Positions 8,213 through 63,908 of a stretch of DNA of 64,000 bases are shown here, one piece after another. Source of the stretch: a virus; IMG/VR virus record IMGVR_UViG_3300033153_006744, positions 1 to 64,000 of that record; one strand, 5' to 3'. Below the pieces are notes generated by a model. The model saw only the letters and a list, made by a program, of their open reading frames with translations. It made no database searches and was not told the DNA's origin. Positions within the stretch are counted from its first letter, which is position 1; each line of letters begins with the position of its first letter. A program made the position numbers and the translations under genes.

Positions 8213-8998
8213 TTATTTTATATCATAAAGTTGTCTTGCATATTTGCAGTTTAATCTTTGCAGGCACCCTAGGCACATGGGCTTATTGCCATATTCATCT
8301 TTTTTGCCTAATCCAGTAGGTTCATAGTTTCCCACCATAATTAACGTAGAAACCTGAATGGCAACTTGATGTACTATTTTTTGATATTGCTTCAACTCTG
8401 AGTCTGACATAAAAAGCTCATAGGCTTGCGGTTTTTTTGTCTTTATAAAAACATGTATTCCCATTCGCATATTTTTTAAAAACATAGAGTATAGAGCTAA
8501 TTGTTTCTTATAGGGAAAACTAATTGAACTCATTTTATTCTTGCTAGATTTAAAGTCAGGGGATATTAGCTCTCCTGTTTCTTTGTTTTTTAAAATAGAA
8601 TCTGCGTGTCCCGAAATACGAAAAAGCACATCTTCTAAATTTAGTTTAATTTCTATTTGCTTGTGAACTAACTCATAATTTTTGCCTATATTTTCAATGT
8701 AAAATTCAATAGAGCTTGTTGCAATCTCAATATTGCTTGACATGTTTTTCTCTATGTCTTTTTTTTCTTCATCAACTAGGTAATCAAAATCTTTTTCAAG
8801 TTCAAACCCTATATCCTTCTTGAAGTCAAAATCACTGGTTTCATAATAACTAATAACGCTTTCCTCATACGCTTTTCCAAGAACAAAGTTTTTTGTACTT
8901 AATCCCTCTCTCTCTTCTATTTCGTATAAATTAAATGCATAAGGGCAGTTTAAATACATGTTAATAGTGCTGTTTCTAAGCTTCTCAACCTTAATCAT
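8213..8998 (-). CDS. Cas4/AddB-type PD-(D/E)XK nuclease
   Basis: RecB-like nuclease: GHADSIL motif, then the active-site core SPDFKSSKNK, then the QLALYS helix. One cysteine near the N-terminus (C18 in YLNCPYAF) and three near the end (C242, C245, C251, spacing CxxC then five) match the iron-sulfur cluster layout of Cas4 and AddB. The start used is MIKVEKL, which has GAAGGG upstream; the ATG five codons earlier lacks a site. It overlaps the ERF gene, so a two-gene recombination unit (5'-3' resection plus strand annealing) is likely. A Cas4 role in CRISPR adaptation is not implied, as no cas1 or array is seen. Confidence 0.8.
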   Translation of the reverse strand: MIKVEKLRNSTINMYLNCPYAFNLYEIEEREGLSTKNFVLGKAYEESVISYYETSDFDFKKDIGFELEKDFDYLVDEEKKDIEKNMSSNIEIATSSIEFYIENIGKNYELVHKQIEIKLNLEDVLFRISGHADSILKNKETGELISPDFKSSKNKMSSISFPYKKQLALYSMFLKNMRMGIHVFIKTKKPQAYELFMSDSELKQYQKIVHQVAIQVSTLIMVGNYEPTGLGKKDEYGNKPMCLGCLQRLNCKYARQLYDIK

Positions 8999-9764
8999 TT
9001 TTTTGCCCTTCATTTAATTGTCTTTCAAATTCTTCTTGTGTTTTTAGTTGCTCTTGCACTGTTTCATGGTCATTGTTTTCATTGTTTTTCTTATTCCACC
9101 TTATTTGTTCTTGTAACATTTCTATCATGTCGCTTATTTGCTTTTTTGTTGCATCTTTAGTGCTTTCGTCTCCAGTTTTTTCTTTTATTTTAGCTCTAAA
9201 TTTAGTAGCTTCCACGCCCGCCTCTTTTACCAACGCCCACATCATATCTTTTTGATTTTTCGTTGCCTTTTCAGTTATAACCTTGGGGTCAGTTTTGGGA
9301 TCAAGTGTTGCCTTTTTGGGTAGTGGTTTTCTATAGCTTTGTGTTGGCCTTGGAGTGCTGTAATTTTGTGTTCTTTTTTGCATAGTTTTTTTGGGTATAG
9401 CTGCGTCCGTATCTTCTTCAGAACTTATATTCAACAATGAACTAATTGCATAACGCCTCATATATGTTATTCCAGCACCAAGAGCCTGTACGTCGCTCAT
9501 TCTACCGCCTGTAACTTTTTCGACCTTAACACAGCTTGTAAGTTCTTTTCCTGTTATATGTCTTAATATAGTTGTTAAATATAGCCCCTTTTCTGTCTCA
9601 TTTAAGGGTTGCATTAAACTAAAGTTATTAGTCAACAACAATGGCTTTAATGCCTTTAGGATTGCCGATAAGTCTGCATATCTATAATTATGTCCATTAG
9701 AGTTAAACTCTACGGTTGCAATTGCATTAGTTAATTCAATTAAATCTTTGTAAAAATCGCTCAT
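8991..9764 (-). CDS. erf: ERF-family single-strand annealing protein
   Basis: Conserved ERF core at about residues 5-120: NGHNYRYADLSAILKALKPLL, then QALGAGITYMRRYAISSLLNI and the acidic EEDTDA. ERF proteins anneal complementary single strands in phage recombination. A Lys/Thr/Pro-rich linker (about 125-165) joins a C-terminal helical region, ending in a very acidic tail typical for contact with single-strand-binding protein. Ribosome site GGAGG. Confidence 0.9.
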   Translation of the reverse strand: MSDFYKDLIELTNAIATVEFNSNGHNYRYADLSAILKALKPLLLTNNFSLMQPLNETEKGLYLTTILRHITGKELTSCVKVEKVTGGRMSDVQALGAGITYMRRYAISSLLNISSEEDTDAAIPKKTMQKRTQNYSTPRPTQSYRKPLPKKATLDPKTDPKVITEKATKNQKDMMWALVKEAGVEATKFRAKIKEKTGDESTKDATKKQISDMIEMLQEQIRWNKKNNENNDHETVQEQLKTQEEFERQLNEGQKND

Positions 9765-10346: not shown

Positions 10347-10534
10347 GCGTTATTGTTTTTATTACATACGCTTAAGATGTTACTTGAATTGCTTTTGCCG
10401 CCTTTTAATTCTTTTTTTAATCTCTTATTTTCATCTAATACTTTATCAAACATATCTAAAGCTTTTTCTCTATCATCCCAACAATTAACTTGTACTGATA
10501 TTTTATTTAGCATATCTATTAAATCTGACCTCAT
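10343..10534 (-). CDS. Small helical protein, 63 aa
   Basis: Mostly one amphipathic helix (EKALDMFDKVLDENKRLKKEL) with a Ser/Asn-rich tail. Good AAGGAG site. It ends within the promoter of the next operon. Function unknown. Confidence 0.6.
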   Translation of the reverse strand: MRSDLIDMLNKISVQVNCWDDREKALDMFDKVLDENKRLKKELKGGKSNSSNILSVCNKNNNA

Positions 10535-10542
10535 GTTTCTCC

Positions 10543-10860
10543 TTAATCTTTAATGAAATTTATGCAAGAATAAACATACTTTTCAAAATCTTTTACAAAA
10601 GACATGTATTTCTCTTGCAAGATTAACACCCCGTCATCTTCACTAGTGTCAAATTCATAAGTATAATTAAATGCTTGACACTTGATTTCTACGTCGTTAA
10701 TCCTTACGTTTACAACAAAAACAACTGTGTTTTCTTCACTTTTGCGATTAAACAAGAACCCTTTTTTAAATACAGCACTAAATGATTCGTCGTCTATTTG
10801 ATGCTCTGCAAGGGTTAGCAAAGATTCTTTTATAAAACTTATTACGTTATTTTTTATCAT
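10543..10860 (-). CDS. Hypothetical protein, 105 aa
   Basis: Helical N-terminus, beta-rich centre (TVVFVVNVRINDVEIKCQAF) and helical end. Overlaps the stop of the upstream gene by 4 bases. General build is similar to its upstream neighbour (both about 105-110 aa with beta core), so they may be distant paralogues or partners. No known family. Confidence 0.65.
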   Translation of the reverse strand: MIKNNVISFIKESLLTLAEHQIDDESFSAVFKKGFLFNRKSEENTVVFVVNVRINDVEIKCQAFNYTYEFDTSEDDGVLILQEKYMSFVKDFEKYVYSCINFIKD

Positions 10861-11189
10861 TGTTGCTCCTCACTAGAATAAATTAACTTTTCGCATTCTT
10901 CTTCATTTGTTTTTGTATTATTTTTCTCAACTGCTTTCTCTAATATTTCTGACATATGTACAAAATCAGCATTAAAAACATTTGGTGTAGTATCAATTCT
11001 AATGTTTTCAACAAACACGTTAGAGTAATGTTTTTTTGCAAAGATTCTTATTTCCAATATTGGAATTGAAGTATGTTTAATTTTTCCAGTTACCAAATAT
11101 ATCAATAATATATATTCGCCATTCAGCTTATTAAAGAAATCTTTATATAACTTTATCACACTTTTTTTTCTTTGTTCTATTTCGTTCAT
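10857..11189 (-). CDS. Hypothetical protein, 110 aa
   Basis: N-terminal helix, beta core (EYILLIYLVTGKIK, PILEIRIFAKKHY) and an acidic, poorly ordered C-terminus (TNEEECEKLIYSSEEQQ). Ribosome site AAGGAG. Function unknown. Confidence 0.65.
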   Translation of the reverse strand: MNEIEQRKKSVIKLYKDFFNKLNGEYILLIYLVTGKIKHTSIPILEIRIFAKKHYSNVFVENIRIDTTPNVFNADFVHMSEILEKAVEKNNTKTNEEECEKLIYSSEEQQ

Positions 11190-45382: not shown

Positions 45383-46969
45383 TTATTTCATTCTTGCAAC
45401 TCTTAAAGTAATAAATAGCGCAGGATCACCTAATGCAACTTGAACATCAGCCGTTAACCTACCCTCTCTTAATAAATTAGGTGGATTAAGGTCTTCACCT
45501 ACATCTACGATATAAGCTTCGCTAGGTTTTGTGCTTGCAAAGAAACCATCATCCCTATATACATCAACTATATCTTCTATATCTAATTCTATTTGTTTTA
45601 AATCATTTGTAGAAATTGTCTTATGTCTAATGTTTCTGTTTAAAACAGCACCAATCTCTCTTTCAAGTCTAATTAATGTTCTAAGGTTTGCAACCCAATC
45701 AATGTTTCCAGTCATATCCATTAATTTTTCACCTTCAATAACAGTTGATTCAGCATCACTATCAAAGATTAAGCAATTAACATTATATGGGAATAAAGCA
45801 TCAGTTACTTTTTTATAATTAGCTTCAATTCTTGTAACGCCTTTTATATCTGGATCTTGCAATAATCCATTTATTAATCCAGCTGCATTTTCACTAGTTC
45901 CGTTTAATAGTTCTCTATCTAATCTAACATATCTACCTAATACATGTGCAGTTGGATCATAATTAATGTTTCCATCAGCATCAGAAGTATAGACGTTTGT
46001 ATCTGGATTAGCTATTTTCAACCAAGGCCAGAAATAAGCTAAATTAAAAGAAAACTCATTATATGTTCCTTGCATTAATGTTTTAGTAGCTGCTGGTGTA
46101 GCTGATGCACTTAAATCTGCAATAGGCATAAATATAGTGCTTTCTCTAACAACTTCTATGTAATTCTTTATCTCTGTTATGCTTGCTATATCTAAAGCTT
46201 CAGGATAAGCTATTGCCGTTACGTCTTCCCCTCTATCAACATATCTAATTCCAGTTATGTTGGTTCCGGCTTCATCGGTATATCCTTTTACATCATCGCT
46301 ATCTAAACTTGTTACCCCATCATCTCCACCAGCTAATGTGTAATCAGCTAAAACAGGAGTATCAACGAGAACATCAGATAAGTCGACACCTTCAACAAAG
46401 TCATGACCATTAAATTCATCATTAAATTTAGTGAGCCAATAATTTTCTGTATCAGATAACAAGCAGCTTACATTAGCCCATTTTCTAAACCCACCGTCAA
46501 CTGTATCTAAAACAATAATGTTAAAACGATCTGCATCACCATCGTCTGGAGCTTCTAATGTCACCCTAAATCTAACAGGCCAAGTTCCCGCCTCTTTTCC
46601 TTGGAACTTAAATCTAGCAAATGGAGCAACATTTGTATCATCTGCAGTTATTTCACTTACAACATCTGTTGCTGTTGCTGGATCTGTAACATCAGTATAA
46701 TGCACTAACTTAACGCCATAACATTTTGTTGGTTTAATTGGACTTGCTTCTTTGAAAAATCTTTCAACATACTTATAAAGCGTTGCGTTTGCATGGTGTC
46801 CACCATATGCTTTATAGGCCTCATCTAATGTTTTAAATTCTGTTAAATCTAAAGGGCCATACGCTGAAGTTCCAACAAAAACAGGTACGGCGTGAGATTG
46901 CAAAGAATTAAGAGATGTATCTTTTTTGTTTACAATTTTACCTTGTACTTTTGAACCCTTGAATTCCAT
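45383..46969 (-). CDS. Contractile tail sheath protein
   Basis: 528 aa. Sheath family marks: PVFVGTSAYGPLDLTEFKTLDEAYKAYGG at the N-terminus, then FEGKEAGTWPVRFRV-like and, at the C-terminal core, LINGLLQDPDIKGVTRIEANYKK, LMDMTGNIDWVANLRTLIRLEREIGA and DVQVALGDPALFITLRV. Contracts to drive the tube. It decides that this is a myovirus. Confidence 0.95.
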   Translation of the reverse strand: MEFKGSKVQGKIVNKKDTSLNSLQSHAVPVFVGTSAYGPLDLTEFKTLDEAYKAYGGHHANATLYKYVERFFKEASPIKPTKCYGVKLVHYTDVTDPATATDVVSEITADDTNVAPFARFKFQGKEAGTWPVRFRVTLEAPDDGDADRFNIIVLDTVDGGFRKWANVSCLLSDTENYWLTKFNDEFNGHDFVEGVDLSDVLVDTPVLADYTLAGGDDGVTSLDSDDVKGYTDEAGTNITGIRYVDRGEDVTAIAYPEALDIASITEIKNYIEVVRESTIFMPIADLSASATPAATKTLMQGTYNEFSFNLAYFWPWLKIANPDTNVYTSDADGNINYDPTAHVLGRYVRLDRELLNGTSENAAGLINGLLQDPDIKGVTRIEANYKKVTDALFPYNVNCLIFDSDAESTVIEGEKLMDMTGNIDWVANLRTLIRLEREIGAVLNRNIRHKTISTNDLKQIELDIEDIVDVYRDDGFFASTKPSEAYIVDVGEDLNPPNLLREGRLTADVQVALGDPALFITLRVARMK

Positions 46970-47254: not shown

Positions 47255-48161
47255 CTTTTCTCTCCACATTTAATGTTATATCTGTAATTTCATCATAAAC
47301 ATCTTTTATAACTTTATCGTAACTTGTAATAGGAATTCTATATATAATTATATCTAAAGAATCTGAAGGATAATTATCATTTCCAACTGTAAAGTTATTA
47401 TATTGCTCTATTTCCCATTCGTAATCAATGTCATCATGATTAAAAGAAGGCATCTTATTTCTTAAATCATATATTATCCTATTCTTTAACCTTAAAACTA
47501 TCTGTGGAGATTGAGACCAAAACATTATTCTTAATGTTATATCTTGTAGTCTTTCTCTAGCATTCTTATATAAGTCATTGACCCCCTGAACATCATCAGC
47601 TGGCAAAAACATCACATCGGCTGGAGTTACGCCAACCAAGCTAACCACAGAGCCAGTATCACTCATTTTGCTTAACTCTTGTCCAGATGTTTCACTCATA
47701 TAATCTTGGCTTCTATATAAAAAAGTTTCATGTAACCAAAATGTTTTTAGTTTCTTTATGAAAGTTTTTATTATATTTTCAACATCACACGCTTGTTCAT
47801 TTTCATCAGGCATTTCGTAAGTCCAAGAGTCTGTTTCTGTTACTGTTTCACCTGGTATAGGATCTAAATTGTCATCTAAGTTAGTAATGATTATATCTCC
47901 AAGCAAAGGAAACTTAGAAGGAGCACCTTTTTCATCTGTCCATGGGTCAGCATCATAAGCTGGCGTCCATATTCGCAACAAAGCACCATCTTCTAACACA
48001 TCAACTCTATCAGCAACAATGCCTTGAAACTTAACTTCAACAACATGTGGATTGCTGCCCACTGCAGCTATTCTGAAATTAGTGCCTATAATATAGACAA
48101 CATCTTTTCCAAATGTAAGTCCAGAAGGTTGTGAAATACTTGTAAAAGTTGGAACAGCCAT
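47247..48161 (-). CDS. Tail terminator-like protein with IPT/TIG domain
   Basis: N-terminal 90 residues match IPT/TIG Ig-like folds (TSISQPSGLTFGKDVVYIIGTNF, VKFQGIVADRVDVLEDGALLRI). The remainder (helical, then ITLRIMFWSQSPQIVLRLKNRIIYDLR) lies where the tail terminator is expected, between tail completion and sheath. 304 aa, larger than usual terminators because of the extra Ig-like domain. One-base overlap with its upstream gene. Confidence 0.65.
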   Translation of the reverse strand: MAVPTFTSISQPSGLTFGKDVVYIIGTNFRIAAVGSNPHVVEVKFQGIVADRVDVLEDGALLRIWTPAYDADPWTDEKGAPSKFPLLGDIIITNLDDNLDPIPGETVTETDSWTYEMPDENEQACDVENIIKTFIKKLKTFWLHETFLYRSQDYMSETSGQELSKMSDTGSVVSLVGVTPADVMFLPADDVQGVNDLYKNARERLQDITLRIMFWSQSPQIVLRLKNRIIYDLRNKMPSFNHDDIDYEWEIEQYNNFTVGNDNYPSDSLDIIIYRIPITSYDKVIKDVYDEITDITLNVERKDD

Positions 48162-48700
48162 TACCTTAAACCCTTAGCTTTTAAAGCTCTTAAAGCCTGC
48201 GTTGTAAACAAATGCTCTATATTACCTTTCATCTTTCGATAAATAGGGGCAATAAAAGGTCTAGCAGGGATATTTATTATTTTAAATCTGCCATCTTCGC
48301 CTTTTCTCATAATTGTTTTACCGTGTTCATGAACCCAGGCTATATTAACCATCTTACCTTTTTCGCCATCAGAGTCATATTCTTCATTTCTATGTATTCC
48401 AACAAAAAAAGAGCCTCTTCCTGTACTAGTTAGCCTAATGCTTCTAAGCAATTGCCCATATCTTATTAAAGCTTTGGTTCCCTTAAAGCCCTCTGCCCTT
48501 CTTCTTGCTATTGTTGCTTTAGCTAAGGGTTTAAATCTTTCATTATTGGGGGCTTGACTTCTTATTCCAAGTTTTATTTCTTTTACGGAAAACATTGCTA
48601 AACGTCTTAACACTAAATGCATAACTGGTTTAGCTTGTTTATATATTGTATTTAAAGCCGTTGACGCCTTATCCCAATCACCAAAAACATTTTTACCCAT
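48161..48700 (-). CDS. Tail completion protein (virion morphogenesis type)
   Basis: Start at MGKNVFGDW after GGGGG; a longer frame is available but unneeded. RFKPLAKATIARRRAEGFKGTKALIRYGQLLRSIRL matches the Mu gpG / P2 gpS virion morphogenesis family. 179 aa. Joins tail to head. Confidence 0.8.
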   Translation of the reverse strand: MGKNVFGDWDKASTALNTIYKQAKPVMHLVLRRLAMFSVKEIKLGIRSQAPNNERFKPLAKATIARRRAEGFKGTKALIRYGQLLRSIRLTSTGRGSFFVGIHRNEEYDSDGEKGKMVNIAWVHEHGKTIMRKGEDGRFKIINIPARPFIAPIYRKMKGNIEHLFTTQALRALKAKGLR

Positions 48701-48719
48701 ATTAACCCCCACTTTTTAC

Positions 48720-49873: not shown

Positions 49874-50536
49874 TTATTGTTTATCTTTGTGGTTGTTTAG
49901 CCTTATAAATGACAACACAACTAATAATTGCAACTCACTAAACTTAGAAAAAAACATCTTATTGTCATTGTATTTACTTAATCCGAACTTTCCGATAACA
50001 TTAAACTTTATACTTTTGCCACTTATTATTTCAGTTTTTGAGAACTTAAAGGCAATCATTTCCTTAGCTGTTTCATGAATTTCAAGCATATCATCAAGAT
50101 TTATTTTCACAAGCCCTTTGTCAGTGCCAATTGTTATTGAATCTTTATTATAATTAACCTTGCAAAAAAAGAAGAAATGTTTTTTATACGAGAAATTAAC
50201 ACCAACCATAAATGGGCTTTTCTCCTTTTTGATTAAATCAAAGAGAACACTCCTGTTTTTAGTTGTTATAAACTCCTTTTCTGTAGCAAAAAAGTTAACT
50301 TGCCTTAATGTTTGGTTTTCTTTTAAGTTTTTGGTTTTAAACAAAGAAGAGCAAGTTAAGCATAATGTTTTTGAGTTATTCTTAAAAATATAGAAGTCAT
50401 TAAAGTTAGCTGATACCGTATTCTTTATTAAGTATCCATTACTTACTTCGCAATTACACAATGCGCAGGTTCCTTTTTCTTTTCCATCTTCGTTTTTAAT
50501 TATATGTTTATCTAGTATGTTAACTATATCTTTCAT
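49874..50536 (-). CDS. csf1: Csf1: type IV CRISPR large-subunit-like zinc-finger protein
   Basis: 220 aa. The N-terminus has a four-cysteine zinc finger (C24/C27 in GTCALCNC and C59/C62 in LCLTC), as in Csf1 of type IV CRISPR-Cas. The rest is beta/alpha with TKNRSVLFDLIKKEKSPFMVGV and ends in KFSELQLLVVLSFIRL. In type IV complexes Csf1 binds the 5' side of the guide and is the counterpart of Cas8. It overlaps csf3 by 17 bases and has AAAGGAG before the ATG. Family call rests on the zinc finger, size and adjacency to Csf3 and Csf2. Confidence 0.75.
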   Translation of the reverse strand: MKDIVNILDKHIIKNEDGKEKGTCALCNCEVSNGYLIKNTVSANFNDFYIFKNNSKTLCLTCSSLFKTKNLKENQTLRQVNFFATEKEFITTKNRSVLFDLIKKEKSPFMVGVNFSYKKHFFFFCKVNYNKDSITIGTDKGLVKINLDDMLEIHETAKEMIAFKFSKTEIISGKSIKFNVIGKFGLSKYNDNKMFFSKFSELQLLVVLSFIRLNNHKDKQ

Positions 50537-51218
50537 TGTTCTCCTTTAGTTGTTTTGGGATTAATATATTTTCTTGATATTCACCTAGCCAATATGGCGC
50601 ACGATAAGACCCATAATCATTTACATAAGAGAAATCTCTATCTTTAAATATGTTATCAGCCATCACCTTAAGTGGCAGTGGTCTAAATAATAAATATTTT
50701 TGCTCTTCTTTTTCGGCAATCGTAATCTCAAAACTTGAAAACCAACCGAACCCAGCCTTAACTTTTTTCCCAATCCCAACAATATAATCTACTAGTTCTT
50801 TTATCTTGTTTTTATCTCCTATAAAATAAAAAACTATATTATCAACAGAATTTATAACAATAGGCATGTCATAGCTTTTATAATATCCACTACCTATATT
50901 TACCTTTCTTTTGGCTTTTCCAAAATAACTAAGAAAATCATGTCTTGAATTCCATCGTTTCCGCCACTTGTCAATTGATATTTCTTTTTTCTCTATTATT
51001 CCATAAGAACAAAGATAAAAACCTAATTTGTGTTTTTTTATGGGGATTAATTTTTCTATATTCTTATTTATTTCGGAACCATTCGAGGTTTTAATGTCGG
51101 TGTTTTTTCTAAAATATTTCTGATAAACTGCATAAGAAATAATGCTGTCAAAAATAGGTATATCTGTATAAGCAATTGGAGATGACATTTTAAATTTTAT
51201 TTTATAAGTTATATCCAT
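50520..51218 (-). CDS. csf3: Csf3: Cas5-like RAMP protein of type IV
   Basis: 232 aa. N-terminal RAMP beta strand (YKIKFKMSSPIA), then IFDSIISYAV, the usual first helix; the glycine-rich RAMP loop VGIGKKVKAGFGWF at about 147-160; then the Csf3-like RPLPLKVM (179-186) and YRAPYW (205-210) near the end. Cas5-like subunits cap the 5' handle of the guide. Overlaps ibrB-like gene by 10 bases and csf1 by 17, so translation is coupled. Confidence 0.8.
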   Translation of the reverse strand: MDITYKIKFKMSSPIAYTDIPIFDSIISYAVYQKYFRKNTDIKTSNGSEINKNIEKLIPIKKHKLGFYLCSYGIIEKKEISIDKWRKRWNSRHDFLSYFGKAKRKVNIGSGYYKSYDMPIVINSVDNIVFYFIGDKNKIKELVDYIVGIGKKVKAGFGWFSSFEITIAEKEEQKYLLFRPLPLKVMADNIFKDRDFSYVNDYGSYRAPYWLGEYQENILIPKQLKENNERYS

Positions 51219-51832
51219 GATTTTGAGAACTCCTTATTTCTAAACAAGTTTCCGAGTCCAGTAAATTGCTTTAACCTTAAGACCTCGTCCTTATCCATCC
51301 CTAGTTGTTCACTTATCTTCTTGTCACTCCAGCCCATAAAATAAAGCTCTTCAACTATTTCACTCATAGATTGTATGCCATGCGTTCCTCTCGCCCTATT
51401 GTGTCTAATTGTACTAGCCATTCTTTCCTTTAAACTTTTTTCTATAACCACTAGTGGCAAATAGCCCTTGGTTCGTGTTTTTATGTCATCATATTCCTTT
51501 CCAATTCTATTCCTGTGAAATCCATCAACAACAACATACTTATCTTGCTCTTTATCATAAAAAGATACAATTGGTTGAGTATATCCATCTTCTTTTATTG
51601 ACCTATATAATAATTGCATTTCTGGAGGTGCAACCTTGTTTGGGTTGTAATTATTAGCCTTAACCCTATCTGCTTTTATCCACAAAACATTGCTGACTGG
51701 CTCTTCTTTAAGTGGGTTAATTTCGTTTAGTTTAGAATAAATGTCATTTAATAATTCTATCTTGTCATCTTGTTTTCTTATCTTCTTTATGTTGAAAATA
51801 AGTTCGTCAACCTTATCTAATAATTCTTTCAT
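51209..51832 (-). CDS. ibrB: IbrB-like ParB-domain protein
   Basis: 207 aa. After a helical head, residues about 48-140 are a ParB/sulfiredoxin-like domain: WIKADRVKANNYNPN, then KEDGYTQPIVSF and the signature VVDGFHRNR (101-109). A helix-turn-helix-like segment follows (GWSDKKISEQLGMDKDEV). IbrB, encoded beside IbrA in E. coli and in many mobile elements, has this layout; its biochemical role is not settled. Four-base overlap (ATGA) with the ibrA-like gene. Confidence 0.8.
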   Translation of the reverse strand: MKELLDKVDELIFNIKKIRKQDDKIELLNDIYSKLNEINPLKEEPVSNVLWIKADRVKANNYNPNKVAPPEMQLLYRSIKEDGYTQPIVSFYDKEQDKYVVVDGFHRNRIGKEYDDIKTRTKGYLPLVVIEKSLKERMASTIRHNRARGTHGIQSMSEIVEELYFMGWSDKKISEQLGMDKDEVLRLKQFTGLGNLFRNKEFSKSWI

Positions 51833-53046
51833 TCTCCTAGCTCCTCTTTCATTTTATAATATTTTTCGTATTGATTTTTAGTTTGACCAAACGACAAACT
51901 TTTACAGATTTTATCGTTCTTTAATATAACTTTAGCAAGCCTCCGCCATGATGGAGCCTTTTTAGAGCTTTCAAGTTTTTTGTCTGCTTCATCTGGAATT
52001 CCATCTGGATAACCATTTTTAGACCACCACCGAATAAATATCTTGAATTTTTGCCCATACCACTCTGCTTCAAATTTTGGAAGAGTTGCCATTAGAAAAT
52101 TAACATAACTTTCCCATGTGTGATTTTTTGGCAATATTACCTTGTTGTTTCCTAATAAAAAGCTTTTGCAATATATGTTGCCAAAATTAGCTCCAGACAC
52201 TCTATCAACAATTCTAGACCACGTTTCAGGTTCACACTGTCTAAATAAATTAAGACCTTTTCTTTGGTCATCTCCGTATGGCTGACATATTCTTGCTTCA
52301 TGTATTGATAACCCCTGCATGTACATGAAATCATAAATTTTATTGTATGTATAGCTCTCGTTTCCAACAGAAACCCATATATCTTTAGTCTTCCAGTCAT
52401 AAATAGGGTAAAAATTAAAAACATTCTCAACAATTTGAGTTGTCCACATTTTATCTTTATATATTTTTTTCTTCGTATTTTTAATGGTTCTATATCTATT
52501 TAAACTTTCATCTGATCTTATTCCAACTCCACAGGCAATTTTTTCTTTTCCAACTTTGAACCACTCTGCAAACCTAACAACTAATTCTTCAAACTCTATT
52601 CCTCTATGAAACCATTTCTCCCATTCTTTGGGCATGTTATTTTCGTTTATAACATATTTTGAATTAGGCATCGGCCTAACCCATTTATCTTCATTTTCTT
52701 TATCCCAACAAATCCATTGTGGCTGGTAAACACTTACTGCATTTCTTAAATTTAAAGGCAAGCATAGCCAATAACCATCAATATCTTTATTGTTGAAAAT
52801 TTCTTCAACATGCTTTATTGTAGACTTATACTGAGCCTCTAAGTCAATGAAAAGTATTTTTATTGGTATTTTGTTCTTTTTTTTCGCAATTTCAAGTGCT
52901 AGTTGAACCATTACACTAGAGTCTTTTCCGCCAGAAAAAGAAAAGCAAATCTCATCTTTGTCAAAGTTGTCAAAAATAAAATTAAGTCTTTCTATTGCCT
53001 TGTCCCAAACATTTACTTTTGAATATGTTTTTGATTCACTGTTCAT
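51829..53046 (-). CDS. ibrA: IbrA-like PAPS-reductase-family protein (DUF3440)
   Basis: 405 aa. The PP-loop SFSGGKDSS (S36-S44) marks the PAPS reductase / N-type ATP pyrophosphatase superfamily; the long C-terminal part with SIHEARICQPYGDDQRKGLNLF and WESYVNFLMATLPKFEAEWYG is the DUF3440/IbrA signature. The family binds ATP and activates a substrate by adenylation; the substrate is unknown. It has an own promoter with TTGACA and an AAGGAGG site. Follows the separate CysH-like gene, so the island has two PP-loop proteins. Confidence 0.85.
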   Translation of the reverse strand: MNSESKTYSKVNVWDKAIERLNFIFDNFDKDEICFSFSGGKDSSVMVQLALEIAKKKNKIPIKILFIDLEAQYKSTIKHVEEIFNNKDIDGYWLCLPLNLRNAVSVYQPQWICWDKENEDKWVRPMPNSKYVINENNMPKEWEKWFHRGIEFEELVVRFAEWFKVGKEKIACGVGIRSDESLNRYRTIKNTKKKIYKDKMWTTQIVENVFNFYPIYDWKTKDIWVSVGNESYTYNKIYDFMYMQGLSIHEARICQPYGDDQRKGLNLFRQCEPETWSRIVDRVSGANFGNIYCKSFLLGNNKVILPKNHTWESYVNFLMATLPKFEAEWYGQKFKIFIRWWSKNGYPDGIPDEADKKLESSKKAPSWRRLAKVILKNDKICKSLSFGQTKNQYEKYYKMKEELGE

Positions 53047-53067
53047 TCTACCTCCTTAGTTACTTAC

Positions 53068-53096
53068 ACTGTAACACATTTTAAACTAAATGTCAA
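53068..53096 (-). promoter_or_regulatory. Internal promoter before ibrA-like gene
   Basis: Minus-strand TTGACA, 17 bases, TACAGT. It would drive ibrA-ibrB-csf3-csf1 apart from csf2-cysH. No type-A leader hairpin follows; the leader is very short. Thus subunit ratios may be set separately from Csf2. Confidence 0.65.
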
Positions 53097-53855
53097 CTAT
53101 GTATATGCTTTTATTTCTGGATGAAAACTTAACATGAGATTGTATTGTTTTTTATAGTAATACTTTAACCATGAAAACTGACCTATTGTTGCAGCCGTTG
53201 GATCTACAAACCAAGATATTCTTATTTTAGCTGGATCATCTGTAAATCTTGTTTTATTATATGCCGGGTGTAGCAATTTATCTAATTTTCTACTGTAAAT
53301 ATATGCAAAAACATCATCCCCAGTTAAATCACAAATCGGATAAAACTGATATATCTTATTTTTCTTAGAATAAAATAATTTACCCATATGTTTTATTAAA
53401 TTTTCCCTTCTTTTGCTTTCTTCTTTTCTTATCCCAATCAAGGCAATTTTATAATCATTGTCCTGTTGGAAGTTTCTAATGGGCGTCATCATTGCCTTTT
53501 CAAACGCATAATTCTTGCACCCAGCATCATAAAAAGCCTTCTTTTTTGCATATTCATCTAGTATGTCAATTGGGGATTTTACTACATTTATTGTCTTATT
53601 GTGGTGTTTTTCCGCTAGTTTTATAATTCCGTAGCTCTCGGGTAGCTCATACCAAGAATCATGAAACATTATGTCTAAATTAGGGTTTGCCTCTAATGCA
53701 ATATCTAGCATTACTAAACTATCCTTGCCAGTGCTATATGAAATAGAACCCTTTGTATTTCTTGTTTCTTTTTCAATAGAGCTCTTAACCAGCTCTATTT
53801 TTCCCTTAAACTCGTCTAGCTCTGCATACAACAAATAATATTCTTTATTTTTCAT
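53097..53855 (-). CDS. cysH: CysH-like PAPS-reductase-family protein of the Csf island
   Basis: 252 aa. The start is an ATG nine bases after GGAG inside the csf2 end (overlap 11 bases); a TTG further up is the alternative. PP-loop SYSTGKDSL (near residue 40), then IMFHDSWYELPESYGIIKLAEKHH, and near the end DPAKIRISWF and FSWLKYYYKKQY. The redox CxxC and ECGLH end of true PAPS reductases are absent, so sulfate reduction is unlikely; adenylation or nucleic-acid thiolation by analogy with DndC is an inference. CysH-like genes are known companions of type IV-B systems. Confidence 0.8.
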   Translation of the reverse strand: MKNKEYYLLYAELDEFKGKIELVKSSIEKETRNTKGSISYSTGKDSLVMLDIALEANPNLDIMFHDSWYELPESYGIIKLAEKHHNKTINVVKSPIDILDEYAKKKAFYDAGCKNYAFEKAMMTPIRNFQQDNDYKIALIGIRKEESKRRENLIKHMGKLFYSKKNKIYQFYPICDLTGDDVFAYIYSRKLDKLLHPAYNKTRFTDDPAKIRISWFVDPTAATIGQFSWLKYYYKKQYNLMLSFHPEIKAYT

Positions 53856-55044
53856 TTTCTTTAACTCCAATAAAAGCTAGGATATCTTTTTTGTTTTTCT
53901 CTATATGCCTTAAGTATAAATTATTTGCATTTTCAGGAATTGTCAACTCTGACAAATCTATTTCAGATGAACCAGTTGCAAACATTCCGCCAATAAACGG
54001 ATTTTCTTTAAAAAGAATTAATGCATGCCAGAAGGCCGAAACAGATAATTCATTAAAATCCATCATTCTAAAGCCATGATTGAACTGAGTTCCTTTTGCA
54101 AAAACTTCATATTCATACTTCATATGAGTTGGGTTTTCATCTTTTTTGTCTTTTATCGCCTTTATTGATATATTCTTTTCATCTTTAGAGCTATCTTTTC
54201 TGCTTTGAAAAATCATGTCCAAGTAAGACCAGAATGAGTTAATTCCTGTTTTCAACTCCACGCATTTAGGATATGCAAAACCAACAGATAATTGACCTTC
54301 TATTGTCATGTTGCCTATTGCACTGCCAAAAACACCAAGCATTGGAATGCTATCTATTAGCTTTTCTCTTTTTTCTAAGTCCTCATATAGGGTAGACTCG
54401 GTCAAGGCTCCGCCAGTAAACAAAATATGATATAATTGTTTATCTATTTTTTTACATCCAACTCTTTTTAAGAAATCATACATCGCTAATCTTCTTAAGA
54501 CGCCCCTAATGCTATTTCCAGATATACAAGGAATCAGCTCAAATGTTTTATTGTATGTTTTAAGTTTCTCTTTTTTTACATCTAATTTATGGTCTTTATC
54601 CTTGCTCTTCATTCTTAATAAAACAGTTATAGTGTGAGCCTCATCTCTAACTTTTGACAAAAACTCAACATCTGTTATTTGTTGTAGATAATTGAATGTT
54701 TTATCTTTTAAATCAGGCATTCTAACACCACATAAATCTGCAAATACTTCAAAAAATTGGAATCTATTTGAAGATGTTGCAGACCTTTTAATTTTTGAAT
54801 ATAGCTCATCCCATATTCCCATTAATCTCTTTCCTTTTATTTTGCTAAAGTCTATCTTAGAGTATATACTATAACAAACATCAACAATGATATTTCTAAC
54901 ATCATCATCTGAAAACGAGGTTAAAAAGTTCTCGTTTTTAACCATTATTTTCTGTCTCCTAAGCAGCTTTGTTGTTCCGTCTGTCTTATCGGAACCCGTG
55001 TGAAGGAATGTTGTTCCAGTGAAATTGTAGTCAACTTTAATCAT
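53845..55044 (-). CDS. csf2: Csf2: Cas7-like backbone protein of type IV
   Basis: 399 aa. RAMP features: NFTGTTFLHTGS at the N-terminus with KLLRRQKI (27-34); PCISGNSIRGVLRRL (172-186); LFTGGAL (208-214); MLGVFGSAIGNMTIEGQLSVGFAYP (about 235-259), which is as in Csf2; and FNHGFRMMDFNELS near the end. Cas7-like proteins bind guide RNA along their length and form the helical backbone of the complex. AAGGAG before the ATG. First cas-like gene of the operon. Confidence 0.85.
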   Translation of the reverse strand: MIKVDYNFTGTTFLHTGSDKTDGTTKLLRRQKIMVKNENFLTSFSDDDVRNIIVDVCYSIYSKIDFSKIKGKRLMGIWDELYSKIKRSATSSNRFQFFEVFADLCGVRMPDLKDKTFNYLQQITDVEFLSKVRDEAHTITVLLRMKSKDKDHKLDVKKEKLKTYNKTFELIPCISGNSIRGVLRRLAMYDFLKRVGCKKIDKQLYHILFTGGALTESTLYEDLEKREKLIDSIPMLGVFGSAIGNMTIEGQLSVGFAYPKCVELKTGINSFWSYLDMIFQSRKDSSKDEKNISIKAIKDKKDENPTHMKYEYEVFAKGTQFNHGFRMMDFNELSVSAFWHALILFKENPFIGGMFATGSSEIDLSELTIPENANNLYLRHIEKNKKDILAFIGVKENEK

Positions 55045-57654: not shown

Positions 57655-58626
57655 TTATATTGTAACTCCATCAATTAAAACATTAGCTGGTTCTTCATTT
57701 AATTGCAAGTCTAATTTATATCTAGCAACAATTTTAAATGTTCCAGTATCAATGTCTTTGTCTGTTTCAACTGTAATGTTTTTCAAAATACCCAAGAAAC
57801 AATTCATTTTATTTAATAAAACAACATCTGTTTCTGTTCCACCACCAAGCGTAATAGGCATATAATCAGATTGAATAACAGGAATACCATTGATAATCAT
57901 GCCATCAACACCTTTTAACAATGTAGCGTCGCCAAGTTGTGTTTCTCTTCCTTGCATTTCAGTCATATTTGTTAATTTAGTTCTTGCAGACTGGATATAA
58001 AGTAAGTCTTGAGGTTTTAGATATTTTGGATCTAACAACTTTAAGATATTAGCATGTTCTTCTAAATCGAAATCAGCTATTGTTCCAGTGTTTGTTGTTA
58101 TGATTTTCCTTAAACCATCCATAGTTTTTAACAATAGATAATCTGGATGCCCAGGATCTGTTGCAGTGTCACCATTAAGAATTAAATTATCAATATCTCT
58201 AGCAATGGCTTCAATAAGTTGATTTGTAACTGTTGTAATAAATCCATCTTTTTCAATGTTTTCTTCTATGTCTTCATAAGATAGAAATGTTGTTGCTCTT
58301 AATCTTTTTACATTAAATGTAACCTTTGATAAAGATGGTGATCTTCTGTTAGAAGACGTTGACCCTGTATATTCCTCATCTTCAACTGACACTGAACCAG
58401 TAAAACCCATTACAGGTATAGATTGTGTAATTGCCTTTAACGGAATAGTTCTAATCATTTTAGCTAAAACTGTTTTCTCAACTATTTTAGCCATAAATTT
58501 TTGTAAATTATCTTGTTTAATTTCTCCACCAGCTGTTTCAATGTCACCAATTGACAAGTCAGCTTTCGTAACGAAATGTCCATTAATTAACTCATTTGCT
58601 TTTGCTATCAAAACTTCTCTATTCAT
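57655..58626 (-). CDS. Major capsid protein, HK97 fold
   Basis: 323 aa, after scaffold-like gene. FMAKIVEKTVLAKMIRTIPLKAITQSIPVMGFTGS corresponds to N-arm and E-loop start; FNVKRLRATTFLSYEDIEENIEKDGF is the backbone helix; IARDIDNLILNGDTAT and VLLNKMNCFLGILKNITVETDKD the A and P domains. Shell-forming protein. Confidence 0.9.
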   Translation of the reverse strand: MNREVLIAKANELINGHFVTKADLSIGDIETAGGEIKQDNLQKFMAKIVEKTVLAKMIRTIPLKAITQSIPVMGFTGSVSVEDEEYTGSTSSNRRSPSLSKVTFNVKRLRATTFLSYEDIEENIEKDGFITTVTNQLIEAIARDIDNLILNGDTATDPGHPDYLLLKTMDGLRKIITTNTGTIADFDLEEHANILKLLDPKYLKPQDLLYIQSARTKLTNMTEMQGRETQLGDATLLKGVDGMIINGIPVIQSDYMPITLGGGTETDVVLLNKMNCFLGILKNITVETDKDIDTGTFKIVARYKLDLQLNEEPANVLIDGVTI

Positions 58627-61408: not shown

Positions 61409-62365
61409 CTATAAGACTGGCAATAATGTTGATCTACATCTATGATGAGCAGGTGGCAAATTAAGTCCATAACTTTCAATCATGCTCATATTTACACCTG
61501 TTTTGCTATTACCTATGTTAATTGTATTGTTATTTACTTTAACCTTGAAATTAATTGATTTATCTCTGGCTGCAGTTTGTCTAACAAAAGGGCTTTTCTC
61601 AAGCAATTCTTCACCTGTCATGCCCATTTCTTCATCTATTCTGTTAACTCCAGCAGCTACACTAAACCTTCTGCCATTCATGAATTGACAATAATTTGTT
61701 GTTGCCTCATCTAAAACGGATGTATATTCATAAAATTCAACTCCAGCTTGACCATAAGTCATTATTTCTGAATAATTTTGAGACTTTGCAACCGCATTTG
61801 AAGCTACAACTTCAAAGTATTTCTTTTGATTTTTAGAGTAACTTCCTGTTATTTCCTTTTCTAATGCCCTTCTAATCGTGTTTATACCTAAGCCCTTATC
61901 AAGTCCTTTTTGTATAATCTTCTGTGCTTTACTGGACATGCTTTTGTTTATAGTTCCCATGTTGTCTTTTATAAAGAAAGATGATGTGCTTGATATATGC
62001 TTAACAACATTTTGGTCTTTTTGATCCCAGCTTGTTTTAGTGTTTAATAATTTAGCTGTTATTGTTTTGTTTCTTTTAAATAACGCTTGGGAAAAAGAAT
62101 GTATAATATTAAAAGACATGTTCTCTATTTTTGTATTGTTTTCTTCTGTAGATCTATTAAATAAAGTTTCAAAAGAATTCATTATGGCAGTTAGTTGTCC
62201 AGTAGTCATTTTAGTGTAATTATATCTTTTCAGCTCCCTTATTATATCTTTTTCATTTTGTGTTGTAAGCACACGTGTATTTCTCATTATTTTATTAGTC
62301 AGTCTTCTGTATAAAATATCGTAAGTTTGTTTGATGTATAGTCTATTCTTTTTCTCTATTGACAT
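61409..62365 (-). CDS. Mu F-like minor head protein
   Basis: 318 aa. The C-terminal domain carries YTSVLDEATTNYCQFMNGRRFSV and PPAHHRCRSTLLPV, the DE-T-C ... P-HP-CR marks of the Mu F family; N-terminal half helical. Overlaps the portal gene by 23 bases. Minor capsid protein injected with or placed near the portal. Confidence 0.85.
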   Translation of the reverse strand: MSIEKKNRLYIKQTYDILYRRLTNKIMRNTRVLTTQNEKDIIRELKRYNYTKMTTGQLTAIMNSFETLFNRSTEENNTKIENMSFNIIHSFSQALFKRNKTITAKLLNTKTSWDQKDQNVVKHISSTSSFFIKDNMGTINKSMSSKAQKIIQKGLDKGLGINTIRRALEKEITGSYSKNQKKYFEVVASNAVAKSQNYSEIMTYGQAGVEFYEYTSVLDEATTNYCQFMNGRRFSVAAGVNRIDEEMGMTGEELLEKSPFVRQTAARDKSINFKVKVNNNTINIGNSKTGVNMSMIESYGLNLPPAHHRCRSTLLPVL

Positions 62366-63908
62366 TGTTTACCAGTTCATTTATTTGTTCTATTTCTTTA
62401 ATATCTAATTCATTCATTTTTTCAGTAGGCAATAACCCAAGTTGAGCATATTTAGCACTAATCCAGCCCCACAAATCATTAACCTCATCAAGAGGCACCT
62501 TAAAGTATTCACTTAATTCTGCTCTAGCTTCATTAGGTGTAATAGCTCCTGAGTCTAATAGTTTAACTATTTCTTCTATAAATGCACTATCTCTCAATCT
62601 AACACCAAGAAGATAAAAATTAACCATTGTAGTGCCTATTACAGTATCTAAAAACCATGTCATGGTTACATTGAAATCATTTCGCTCTGGCTTAAATACT
62701 TGATTTTCTGCTGTTTCCAGAGCTGCATATGCAGTAGCTCTATTTATTCCATCCGTATCACCTGTAAAGAGCTTAGATAATCTAAAGCAAGACCTAATGC
62801 TTTCTTTTATATTTTTAAGAGCTTTGACAAAATAGTCATCTCTTTTAACTTGAAGTGGATTTATATCAATCTTCACGCCTTTTCCATCACTTCCACCGCT
62901 TGTCTTGCTTTCCGTAATAATTGGTTCTTTTCCTTTTATAGATCCTGTCCTGAGTCTTTTGAAAAACTTCTTAAATTCATTTTTAGAATCTTTTGTTAAA
63001 GAACCACCAGATAAATTAATCCAATAGTTAGGCATTTTGTTTGTTTGTAAGTCTTCTAAATCACCATTAGCATGATATATATATGTTAATGATTCTGTTA
63101 TGGCTGGCTCATAGCGAGGTACACCATATTCAGTATCATCTATGCTCTCTAATTTAAAATGTAATATTTCAGTTGCAAGTAAATCTTCATCTTTTATCTT
63201 TTCTGACTCTATAGCTTTATTGTAATCCTCTTCAGTTTCATATATGTCACCAGTTTTTTGCATGATATATCTAGGATCACCAAATTCTTTATAGAAAATA
63301 TTATATTTTATATCTTTAAATACATTAAAGTTCTGCAAGTCATCAACTGTTTTAGTTTCATCTATCCCAGAGTTTATTGTTTTCTCTGTTTTTATATATT
63401 CAACGTTTGGTTGTATTCTAATGTTAACAGATTTAAGACATGTTATTTTATACACTTGTTTAGCGTCATTTTTCCAAATATCCCAATAACCATTACCAAA
63501 GGATTCTTTCTGCTTAAATGTCTCCTTCAATAGACCCTGAAAGCCATCTTTATCCGTAACCCTTTTTAAAAACAGCTCTACTTCTAGCTTGTCTTTCTCT
63601 CTCTTTAACTCTAAATCTTTTTTTATTATCAAATATTCTTTGTCTGTTAATACTTTGCCAGTTTCAGCGTGATATTGTAAGCTAATTAATTTCTTAGTTG
63701 ATTCGCTTTCTAGCTTATATCTATCATTTAATTCATAACCTTGTTGAGCTATATTTGAAACATAAGCATTTATATTGCCCCTAACCTCAGAATTAGATCT
63801 ACAAATTAAGGATAATAAATGTAATGGATAAGGAGGGTTTTGCAATAATTCACCTTCATTTTTGCCATTCAGAGCATAAGTCTTTCCAGTTTGCAAAGTA
63901 TCAGGCAT
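62343..63908 (-). CDS. Portal protein
   Basis: 521 aa. VRGNINAYVSNIAQQGYELNDR, FGNGYWDIWKND and VPRYEPAITESLTYIYHANGDLEDLQTN, then FNVTMTWFLDTVIG and LGLLPTEKMNELDIKEI fit PBSX/SPO1-type portals of myoviruses. It forms the dodecameric channel for packaging. GGAGG site. Upstream partial gene ends one base before it. Confidence 0.85.
   Translation of the reverse strand: MPDTLQTGKTYALNGKNEGELLQNPPYPLHLLSLICRSNSEVRGNINAYVSNIAQQGYELNDRYKLESESTKKLISLQYHAETGKVLTDKEYLIIKKDLELKREKDKLEVELFLKRVTDKDGFQGLLKETFKQKESFGNGYWDIWKNDAKQVYKITCLKSVNIRIQPNVEYIKTEKTINSGIDETKTVDDLQNFNVFKDIKYNIFYKEFGDPRYIMQKTGDIYETEEDYNKAIESEKIKDEDLLATEILHFKLESIDDTEYGVPRYEPAITESLTYIYHANGDLEDLQTNKMPNYWINLSGGSLTKDSKNEFKKFFKRLRTGSIKGKEPIITESKTSGGSDGKGVKIDINPLQVKRDDYFVKALKNIKESIRSCFRLSKLFTGDTDGINRATAYAALETAENQVFKPERNDFNVTMTWFLDTVIGTTMVNFYLLGVRLRDSAFIEEIVKLLDSGAITPNEARAELSEYFKVPLDEVNDLWGWISAKYAQLGLLPTEKMNELDIKEIEQINELVNNVNREKE

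Follow-up and report, generated by a model that had tools for sequence, protein, structure and literature searches.

Among CRISPR-Cas (clustered regularly interspaced short palindromic repeats and associated proteins) systems, type IV-B is one of the least understood classes, which holds for its RNA as well as for its target and for what its CysH protein does. Its described representatives (Mycobacterium sp. JS623, PDB 7jhy; Rhodococcus plasmids; Skermania phage SPI1) combine csf1, csf2, csf3 and a CysH-like gene, with no adjacent array, DinG or Cas1, and the Csf2 and Cas11 proteins of type IV-B form intertwined filaments on RNA (PMC7937560). Published virus-borne versions comprise a type IV-B system of an archaeal virus as well as type IV systems of prophages and of lytic phages (PMC10848311). 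In the current work, a related operon was analyzed in a stretch of 64,000 nucleotides (the window), which is part of the 90,494-bp virus record IMGVR_UViG_3300033153_006744 (G000). The locus is best explained as a phage-borne type IV-B-like effector operon that belongs to a mainly viral clade whose Cas7 protein, Csf2, has Cas11 built into it; a probability of about 0.6 is given to this explanation as a whole, including the mode of action proposed below.

Csf2 with an internal Cas11

The operon consists of six genes, all on the minus strand, given here in their order within the operon with the insert listed below its host gene:

53845 to 55044, minus strand: csf2, Cas7-like backbone subunit with inserted Cas11 small subunit, 399 amino acids (PADLOC Csf2_0_IV 1.3e-49 and typeIV_Cas11 9.6e-8; AlphaFold2; Foldseek against PDB)
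54541 to 54945, minus strand: Cas11 insert inside csf2, residues ~34-168 with a helical core at 46-147 (hhalign against separate IV-B Cas11)
53097 to 53870, minus strand: cysH-like gene (CasCysH), 257 amino acids, PP-loop STGKDS intact, without the C-terminal catalytic Cys (PF01507 2.4e-18)
51829 to 53046, minus strand: IbrA-like gene, DUF3440 plus phosphoadenosine phosphosulfate (PAPS)-reductase domain, 405 amino acids (PF11922 1.1e-37; PF01507 1.6e-13; phrog_2302 8.3e-92)
51209 to 51832, minus strand: IbrB-like gene with ParB domain, 207 amino acids (phrog_2159 1e-73; PF02195, ParB_N, 4.8e-5, slightly under the Pfam cut-off)
50520 to 51218, minus strand: csf3, Cas5-like, 232 amino acids (PADLOC Csf3_0_IV 9.2e-38; NCBIfam cas5_csf3 3.6e-22; Csf3 in PDB 6.6e-5 by profile)
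49874 to 50536, minus strand: csf1, small Cas8-like subunit, 220 amino acids, Cys24/27...Cys59/62 (PADLOC Csf1_0_IV 8.9e-27; NCBIfam 8.3e-12)

A preliminary description of this DNA had recognized csf1, csf2 and csf3 as one tight operon, and that part stands, as both PADLOC and NCBIfam (2.2e-9 for csf2) match all three proteins and the motifs it cited (GNSIRGVLRR, GVFGSAIGN, the GIGKKVKAGFGWF loop, RPLPL, YRAPYW and the four Cys of Csf1) are present; cysH, IbrA, IbrB and the Cas11 domain inside Csf2 had, however, been overlooked.

The type IV Cas7 profile matches Csf2 in two stretches, and typeIV_Cas11 profiles match at residues 48-164, while the spacing between the LLRR(E/Q)K and P..SGNS(I)RG motifs is ~140 residues as compared to ~9-15 in IV-B proteins with a separate Cas11. 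When a profile of the insert was aligned to the separate Cas11 proteins of IV-B loci, a probability of 96.7 was obtained (E 4.6e-10, score 62), against a maximum score of 14.9 for 50 column-shuffled control profiles. With the hidden Markov model (HMM) of the insert, the separate Cas11 proteins encoded on haloarchaeal plasmids are recovered at ~1e-9; the reverse search with the separate-Cas11 HMM finds the fused Csf2 proteins at 4.8e-12 to 1.4e-3 (residues ~55-160). Across the 3,125 open reading frames (ORFs) of the loci collected, matches of the latter profile with E<0.002 were confined to separate Cas11 genes and fused Csf2, and no separate Cas11 gene was matched among the ORFs of the 90-kb record. 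In a Bacteroidales genome (G065), an unfused relative is made up of individual genes for csf1, then cas11, then csf2, with a loop of 10 residues (LRREKFVQPKGNVVEIPIISGNSIRG) at the insert site.

An AlphaFold2 model based on an alignment of 16 relatives (predicted local distance difference test score, pLDDT, 81.7; predicted template modelling score 0.75), which superseded one built with four sequences (pLDDT 50), places strands 30-42 and 162-172 in a hairpin, with six helices (46-147) between them at its tip. The Cas11 small subunit, normally the product of a separate gene, thus sits inside a beta hairpin of Csf2. Because Cas11 is here an insert and not a gene of its own, the module represents a variant of type IV-B rather than a plain member. 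In types III-E (Cas7-11) and III-I (Cas7-11i) Cas7 and Cas11 are likewise found in one chain, yet there several Cas7 domains follow one another along the chain, joined to Cas11, and the proteins cut RNA or are likely to do so, whereas the Csf2 of the window has one Cas7 domain only, holds Cas11 in that domain's own hairpin and is presumably a repeating subunit.

In a Foldseek comparison of the modelled Csf2 with the PDB, ranks 1-27 were occupied by type IV Csf2 chains from IV-A and IV-B complexes, followed by type III Csm3, with E-values down to 2.7e-9; the best structural matches are therefore not the unrelated RNA-binding or virion proteins which would have spoken against the assignment, and a library of predicted viral structures returned zero matches at E<=0.001. 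Template modelling scores were moderate (0.35-0.48 by query length), which is expected with an extra domain. The IV-B chain 7jhy_a aligned with E=1.1e-8 and a root-mean-square deviation of 4.8 over 211 columns, the best E-values were those of IV-A chains (PDB 8rc3, 7xfz), and the best PDB match by sequence was 11fs ‘Cas7c’, whose subtype could not be established.

A tree of Cas7 proteins from which the insert had been removed, and which included no assured IV-C reference, split type IV-A from the rest at 100/99 and placed the fused proteins as their own group next to IV-B proteins with a separate Cas11, and the Csf3 tree agrees in that it places the viral group (82/86) outside IV-A. The trees thus do not show the placement outside type IV that would have counted against the assignment. 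Although type IV-A (DinG) shares the Csf1/Csf2/Csf3 core, its hallmarks, i.e. DinG, a profile-detectable Cas6/Csf5 and an array, were all not found in the record of the window. In view of the 11fs match a closer link with IV-C is conceivable, while csf1 and cysH speak for IV-B. The type IV-B-like identity put forward in the preliminary description is in our view near certain on the combined grounds of profiles, structure prediction, trees and the companion cysH, even though that reading was incomplete. The four Csf1 Cys are invariant across the window, L001 and L005 (locus labels as used below), and were retained in 10 of 16 viral Csf1 proteins.

Relatives and the CysH and IbrA/IbrB companions

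Relatives were retrieved by scans of IMG/VR plus one scan of GTDB genomes. The fusion was present in 16 further non-redundant loci (17 with the window), namely L001, L005, L006, L015, L017-L023 and L037-L041 (L016, a copy of L015, was not counted), of which 14 are IMG/VR virus contigs and two are short metagenome-assembled contigs. Their fused Csf2 is 34-55% identical to that of the window, and 35-55% identity with invariant motifs was observed among aligned members; for L006, in which the csf2 start lies beyond the contig edge and the insert is partly masked, the Cas11 stretch ahead of the mask matches. The Cas7 tree is consistent with the fusion having arisen once, though support is weak, and the insertion point, identical across members, would favour this.

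None of the plasmid or isolate-phage records searched carries a fused Csf2. A csf2-like gene is present in 63 plasmid records, 0 of which cover 80% of the fused protein, and among 50,697 phage records the only one with a related csf2 is that of the cultured Skermania phage SPI1 (L002, KR011061.1, 32609-36242), in which Cas11 is separate and a complete canonical IV-B operon (csf1-cas11-csf2-csf3-cysH) is annotated as ‘hypothetical’ throughout. With such an operon in SPI1 and with virus-borne type IV, IV-B included, already published (PMC10848311), viral location alone is not new, contrary to the weight that the preliminary description had laid on a phage copy. The published Fuxivirus IV-B system of a Bathyarchaeia virus (PMC10848311), compared here by description only, is likewise virus-encoded with CysH and no adaptation genes, but it belongs to an archaeal virus, its Cas11 is treated as an own protein and it has a two-repeat mini-array. 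The window differs from described IV-B loci in its Cas11 within Csf2, in IbrA and IbrB in the operon and in its location in a tailed phage rather than a plasmid. What appears new is the fused Cas7-Cas11 clade together with its recurrent IbrA/IbrB link: in the available part of the 2025 classification, Cas7-Cas11 fusions are attributed to III-E and III-I alone (PMC12669027), and no description of the fused variant was found in the literature covered, which does not extend to key type IV papers (Pinilla-Redondo 2020; Moya-Beltran 2021; Al-Shayeb 2022).

The genes flanking the relatives include a terminase (L017, L021, L038), tape measure (L015, L037), sheath (L037), Mu-type portal (L017), baseplate J (L023), DnaB helicase (L018) and primase (L019), as well as portal- and capsid-like reading frames judged by eye in L020. 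For 12 structural and other proteins of the window’s record, phmmer gave no match in the stretches examined around the other modules. The csf1, csf2, cysH and csf3 genes are thus conserved in tailed phages for which no structural protein shared with the window was detected in those stretches, and the module seems to move among dissimilar phages. That it occurs in a dozen or more virus contigs whose structural genes differ indicates that it is useful to phages and not to plasmids alone.

A cysH gene lies beside the csf genes in 13 of the 16 relatives, none being seen in the examined stretches of L005 (contig end), L021 and L037. An alignment of the CysH proteins from the modules shows the SxGKDS PP-loop preserved and no conserved C-terminal Cys, which is the pattern of type IV-B CasCysH (PMC8175902). 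To a large extent, the plasmids that carry relatives of the window CysH (32 records), among them Rhodococcus and Thermococcus plasmids, are also those that bear a IV-B csf2.

The IbrA/IbrB pair resembles the known adjacent genes of phrog_2302 and phrog_2159 in domain make-up (DUF3440/PAPS-reductase plus ParB), which usually occur without csf genes; within a csf operon the pair was found in the window and in L023. In the 14 virus records with fused csf genes (~0.82 Mb) only two DUF3440 genes are present, both within the module, against a background of 131 of 50,697 phages and 593 of 72,556 plasmids. As the modules make up about a tenth of that DNA, the chance probability of both placements is roughly estimated at ~0.01, and the link between IbrA/IbrB and csf is suggestive, not proven. 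These recurrent neighbours suggest a second PP-loop enzyme in the same pathway. In L023 (12059-16099), IbrA, IbrB, methyltransferase-like and nuclease-like genes lie between cysH and csf3, for which reason this gap of the operon seems to gather modification-type genes. On the haloarchaeal plasmids L010, L028 and probably L011, csf1-cas11-csf2-csf3 is accompanied within ~5 kb by DUF3440/IbrA, ParB/IbrB and a PAPS-reductase-like gene, in parallel to the phage operon.

Arrays and Cas6

The genes of the window operon overlap by 26 nt (csf2/cysH), 4 nt (ibrA/ibrB), 10 nt (ibrB/csf3) and 17 nt (csf3/csf1), with a single gap of 50 nt, and this spacing leaves no room for an array. Neither Cas1 nor DinG was found in the 90-kb record, which is possibly fragmentary, and Rfam gave no match.

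Guide-RNA components are, however, present in two relatives. L001 (IMGVR_UViG_3300033153_007754) carries at 8683-9375 a true Cas6 (Cas6b E=2.6e-33) as the first gene of its csf operon, which is opposite in direction to the genes around it; a search of the 153.5-kb record of L001 for an array was negative, the only repeats being scattered short ones, mostly 72 nt apart, in coding repeats. L020 (IMGVR_UViG_3300016457_001209) contains at 10416-11106, ~1 kb past cysH, a CRISPR array of 11 identical 32-nt repeats (GTTTCAATCCACGCCCCCGCGCGGGGGGCGAC) with 33-34-nt spacers. The repeat, which we take to be of the type I-C kind, is also present in seven other viral contigs, with no csf genes seen in their examined stretches. 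The conclusion of the preliminary description that immunity by spacers is not involved was therefore too strong for the family, and relatives with Cas6 or with an array of readable spacers allow the use of CRISPR RNAs (crRNAs) by type IV-B to be asked directly.

A search for Cas6 in the 12 other virus records was negative. Two further candidates were considered. Outside the window, at 66346-66924 of G000 (L007:2346-2924, minus strand), a 192-amino-acid protein has a Cas6-like C-terminal glycine loop (GVGHKNGSGYGFLKG), with Cas6 homology unproven, since PADLOC, Pfam, PDB and pairwise comparisons gave weak matches only (Pfam RAMPs 0.14), and with no relatives in IMG/VR; this protein could supply Cas6 function in trans. 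Its gene adjoins a ParB-methyltransferase gene. The ‘CRISPR-associated endoribonuclease Cas6’ of Thermococcus nautili plasmid NZ_OX281346.1 (L009:6734-7477) scores as the Csf3 (1e-61) of a IV-B operon, is likely misnamed and was dropped as evidence for an archaeal IV-B Cas6.

Possible function and genomic setting

The operon likely encodes a nuclease-free complex loaded with small RNA that takes part in conflict with the host or with rival elements. The fused Csf2 would polymerize along a small RNA into a helical filament, in which each Cas7 brings the Cas11 ‘belly’ in cis and the ratio of the two is fixed at 1:1, Csf3 would cap the RNA 5’ end and Csf1 would be placed beside this cap. Since an array is absent, the RNA would be delivered in trans as host crRNAs or other small RNAs, and since the complex has no nuclease, it would act by binding, and so silencing, nucleic acid of rival elements or of host defence, much as type IV-A represses transcription without a nuclease (PMC11656645). 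An ATP-dependent CysH-like enzyme, perhaps with IbrA/IbrB, would form the effector branch. Guided silencing is perhaps the mechanism, a proposal we hold tentatively and at somewhat less than even odds.

Several observations weigh against this proposal or parts of it. Neither a CRISPR-like repeat nor, by profile, a Cas6 was found in the whole 90-kb record, for which reason guided action would need host RNAs, and the L020 spacers have no protospacer in phage or plasmid collections or in the loci collected. In the one IV-B complex with a solved structure, the RNA bound was heterogeneous and not crRNA (PMC7937560), and RNA binding, guide and target of the present complex are predictions by analogy. 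All three Csf proteins miss the NCBIfam equivalog cut-offs (37 bits against 130 for csf2, 79 against 140 for csf3 and 45 against 140 for csf1) and are thus divergent, and the single origin of the fused clade reaches a support of just 43/35 in the Cas7 tree.

The main rival explanation, stated as a hypothesis in PMC8175902, is that of an anti-CRISPR sponge, in which host crRNAs or other small RNAs are sequestered by the Csf filament, which itself binds no target. The RNAs on which the IV-B complex assembles, heterogeneous as they are, have a uniform length (PMC7937560), the record of the window lacks an array and a profile-detectable Cas6, and a Cas11-Cas7 fusion would suit the formation of filament in bulk. 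A sponge nevertheless leaves unexplained why csf1, csf3 and a CysH with intact PP-loop are retained in most loci, and why a Cas6 (L001) or an array (L020) accompanies the module, and we regard it as unlikely.

That the CysH-like enzyme, IbrA and IbrB modify phage or target nucleic acid, the Csf complex being a specificity or protection module, is a still more doubtful alternative. It draws on the preserved PP-loop of CysH, the PAPS-reductase domain of IbrA, a weak similarity to DndC and BrxP, the presence of IbrA/IbrB genes within or next to the csf modules of the window, L023, L010, L028 and probably L011, and the confinement of both DUF3440 genes of the 14 virus records to the module, but CysH has no catalytic Cys, IbrA/IbrB are missing from most fused loci, IbrA occurs in phages and plasmids without csf genes and the chemistry of CysH and IbrA is predicted. 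A more far-reaching reading is that of a virus-dominated IV-B variant which is exchanged among structurally unlike phages, whose two filaments are both made of one Cas7(Cas11) protein, and which takes RNAs from host or phage arrays and directs a chemical modification of rival or host nucleic acid by CysH/IbrA/IbrB; in its entirety this is a long shot, which, if true, would amount to a CRISPR function not yet described.

Reuse of these RAMP proteins in the virion or its assembly, which the position between neck and head genes might suggest, is very improbable given that the modules of relatives are located close to replication genes (L018, L019) or to a terminase (L017, L021, L038), or are oriented opposite to their neighbours (L001), that csf and cysH keep co-travelling and that no predicted viral structure was matched. 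Degenerate passenger genes, as a divergent module in a variable spot could imply, are the least credible explanation in view of six intact reading frames with tight overlaps and of the conservation of the fused Csf2.

For the preferred reading as a phage-borne type IV-B-like effector, the union of two filament proteins in one chain, with the Cas7:Cas11 ratio thereby set, offers a simpler complex to purify.

The placement of the module between head and tail genes, as first described, is borne out by the annotation of its neighbours, with the major head protein (57655-58626) and portal (62343-63908) on one flank and a neck/tail completion protein (48161-48712) and the sheath (45383-46969) on the other. 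The terminase of the record has matches to distant Bacillus-group phages only. Close to the terminase gene, at 72664-73239 of G000 (L007:8664-9239), lies a lone plus-strand ORF with the look of an HNH homing endonuclease (GFEGFYQASNLGRIK...NHKNGIKIDNRLGNLEW).

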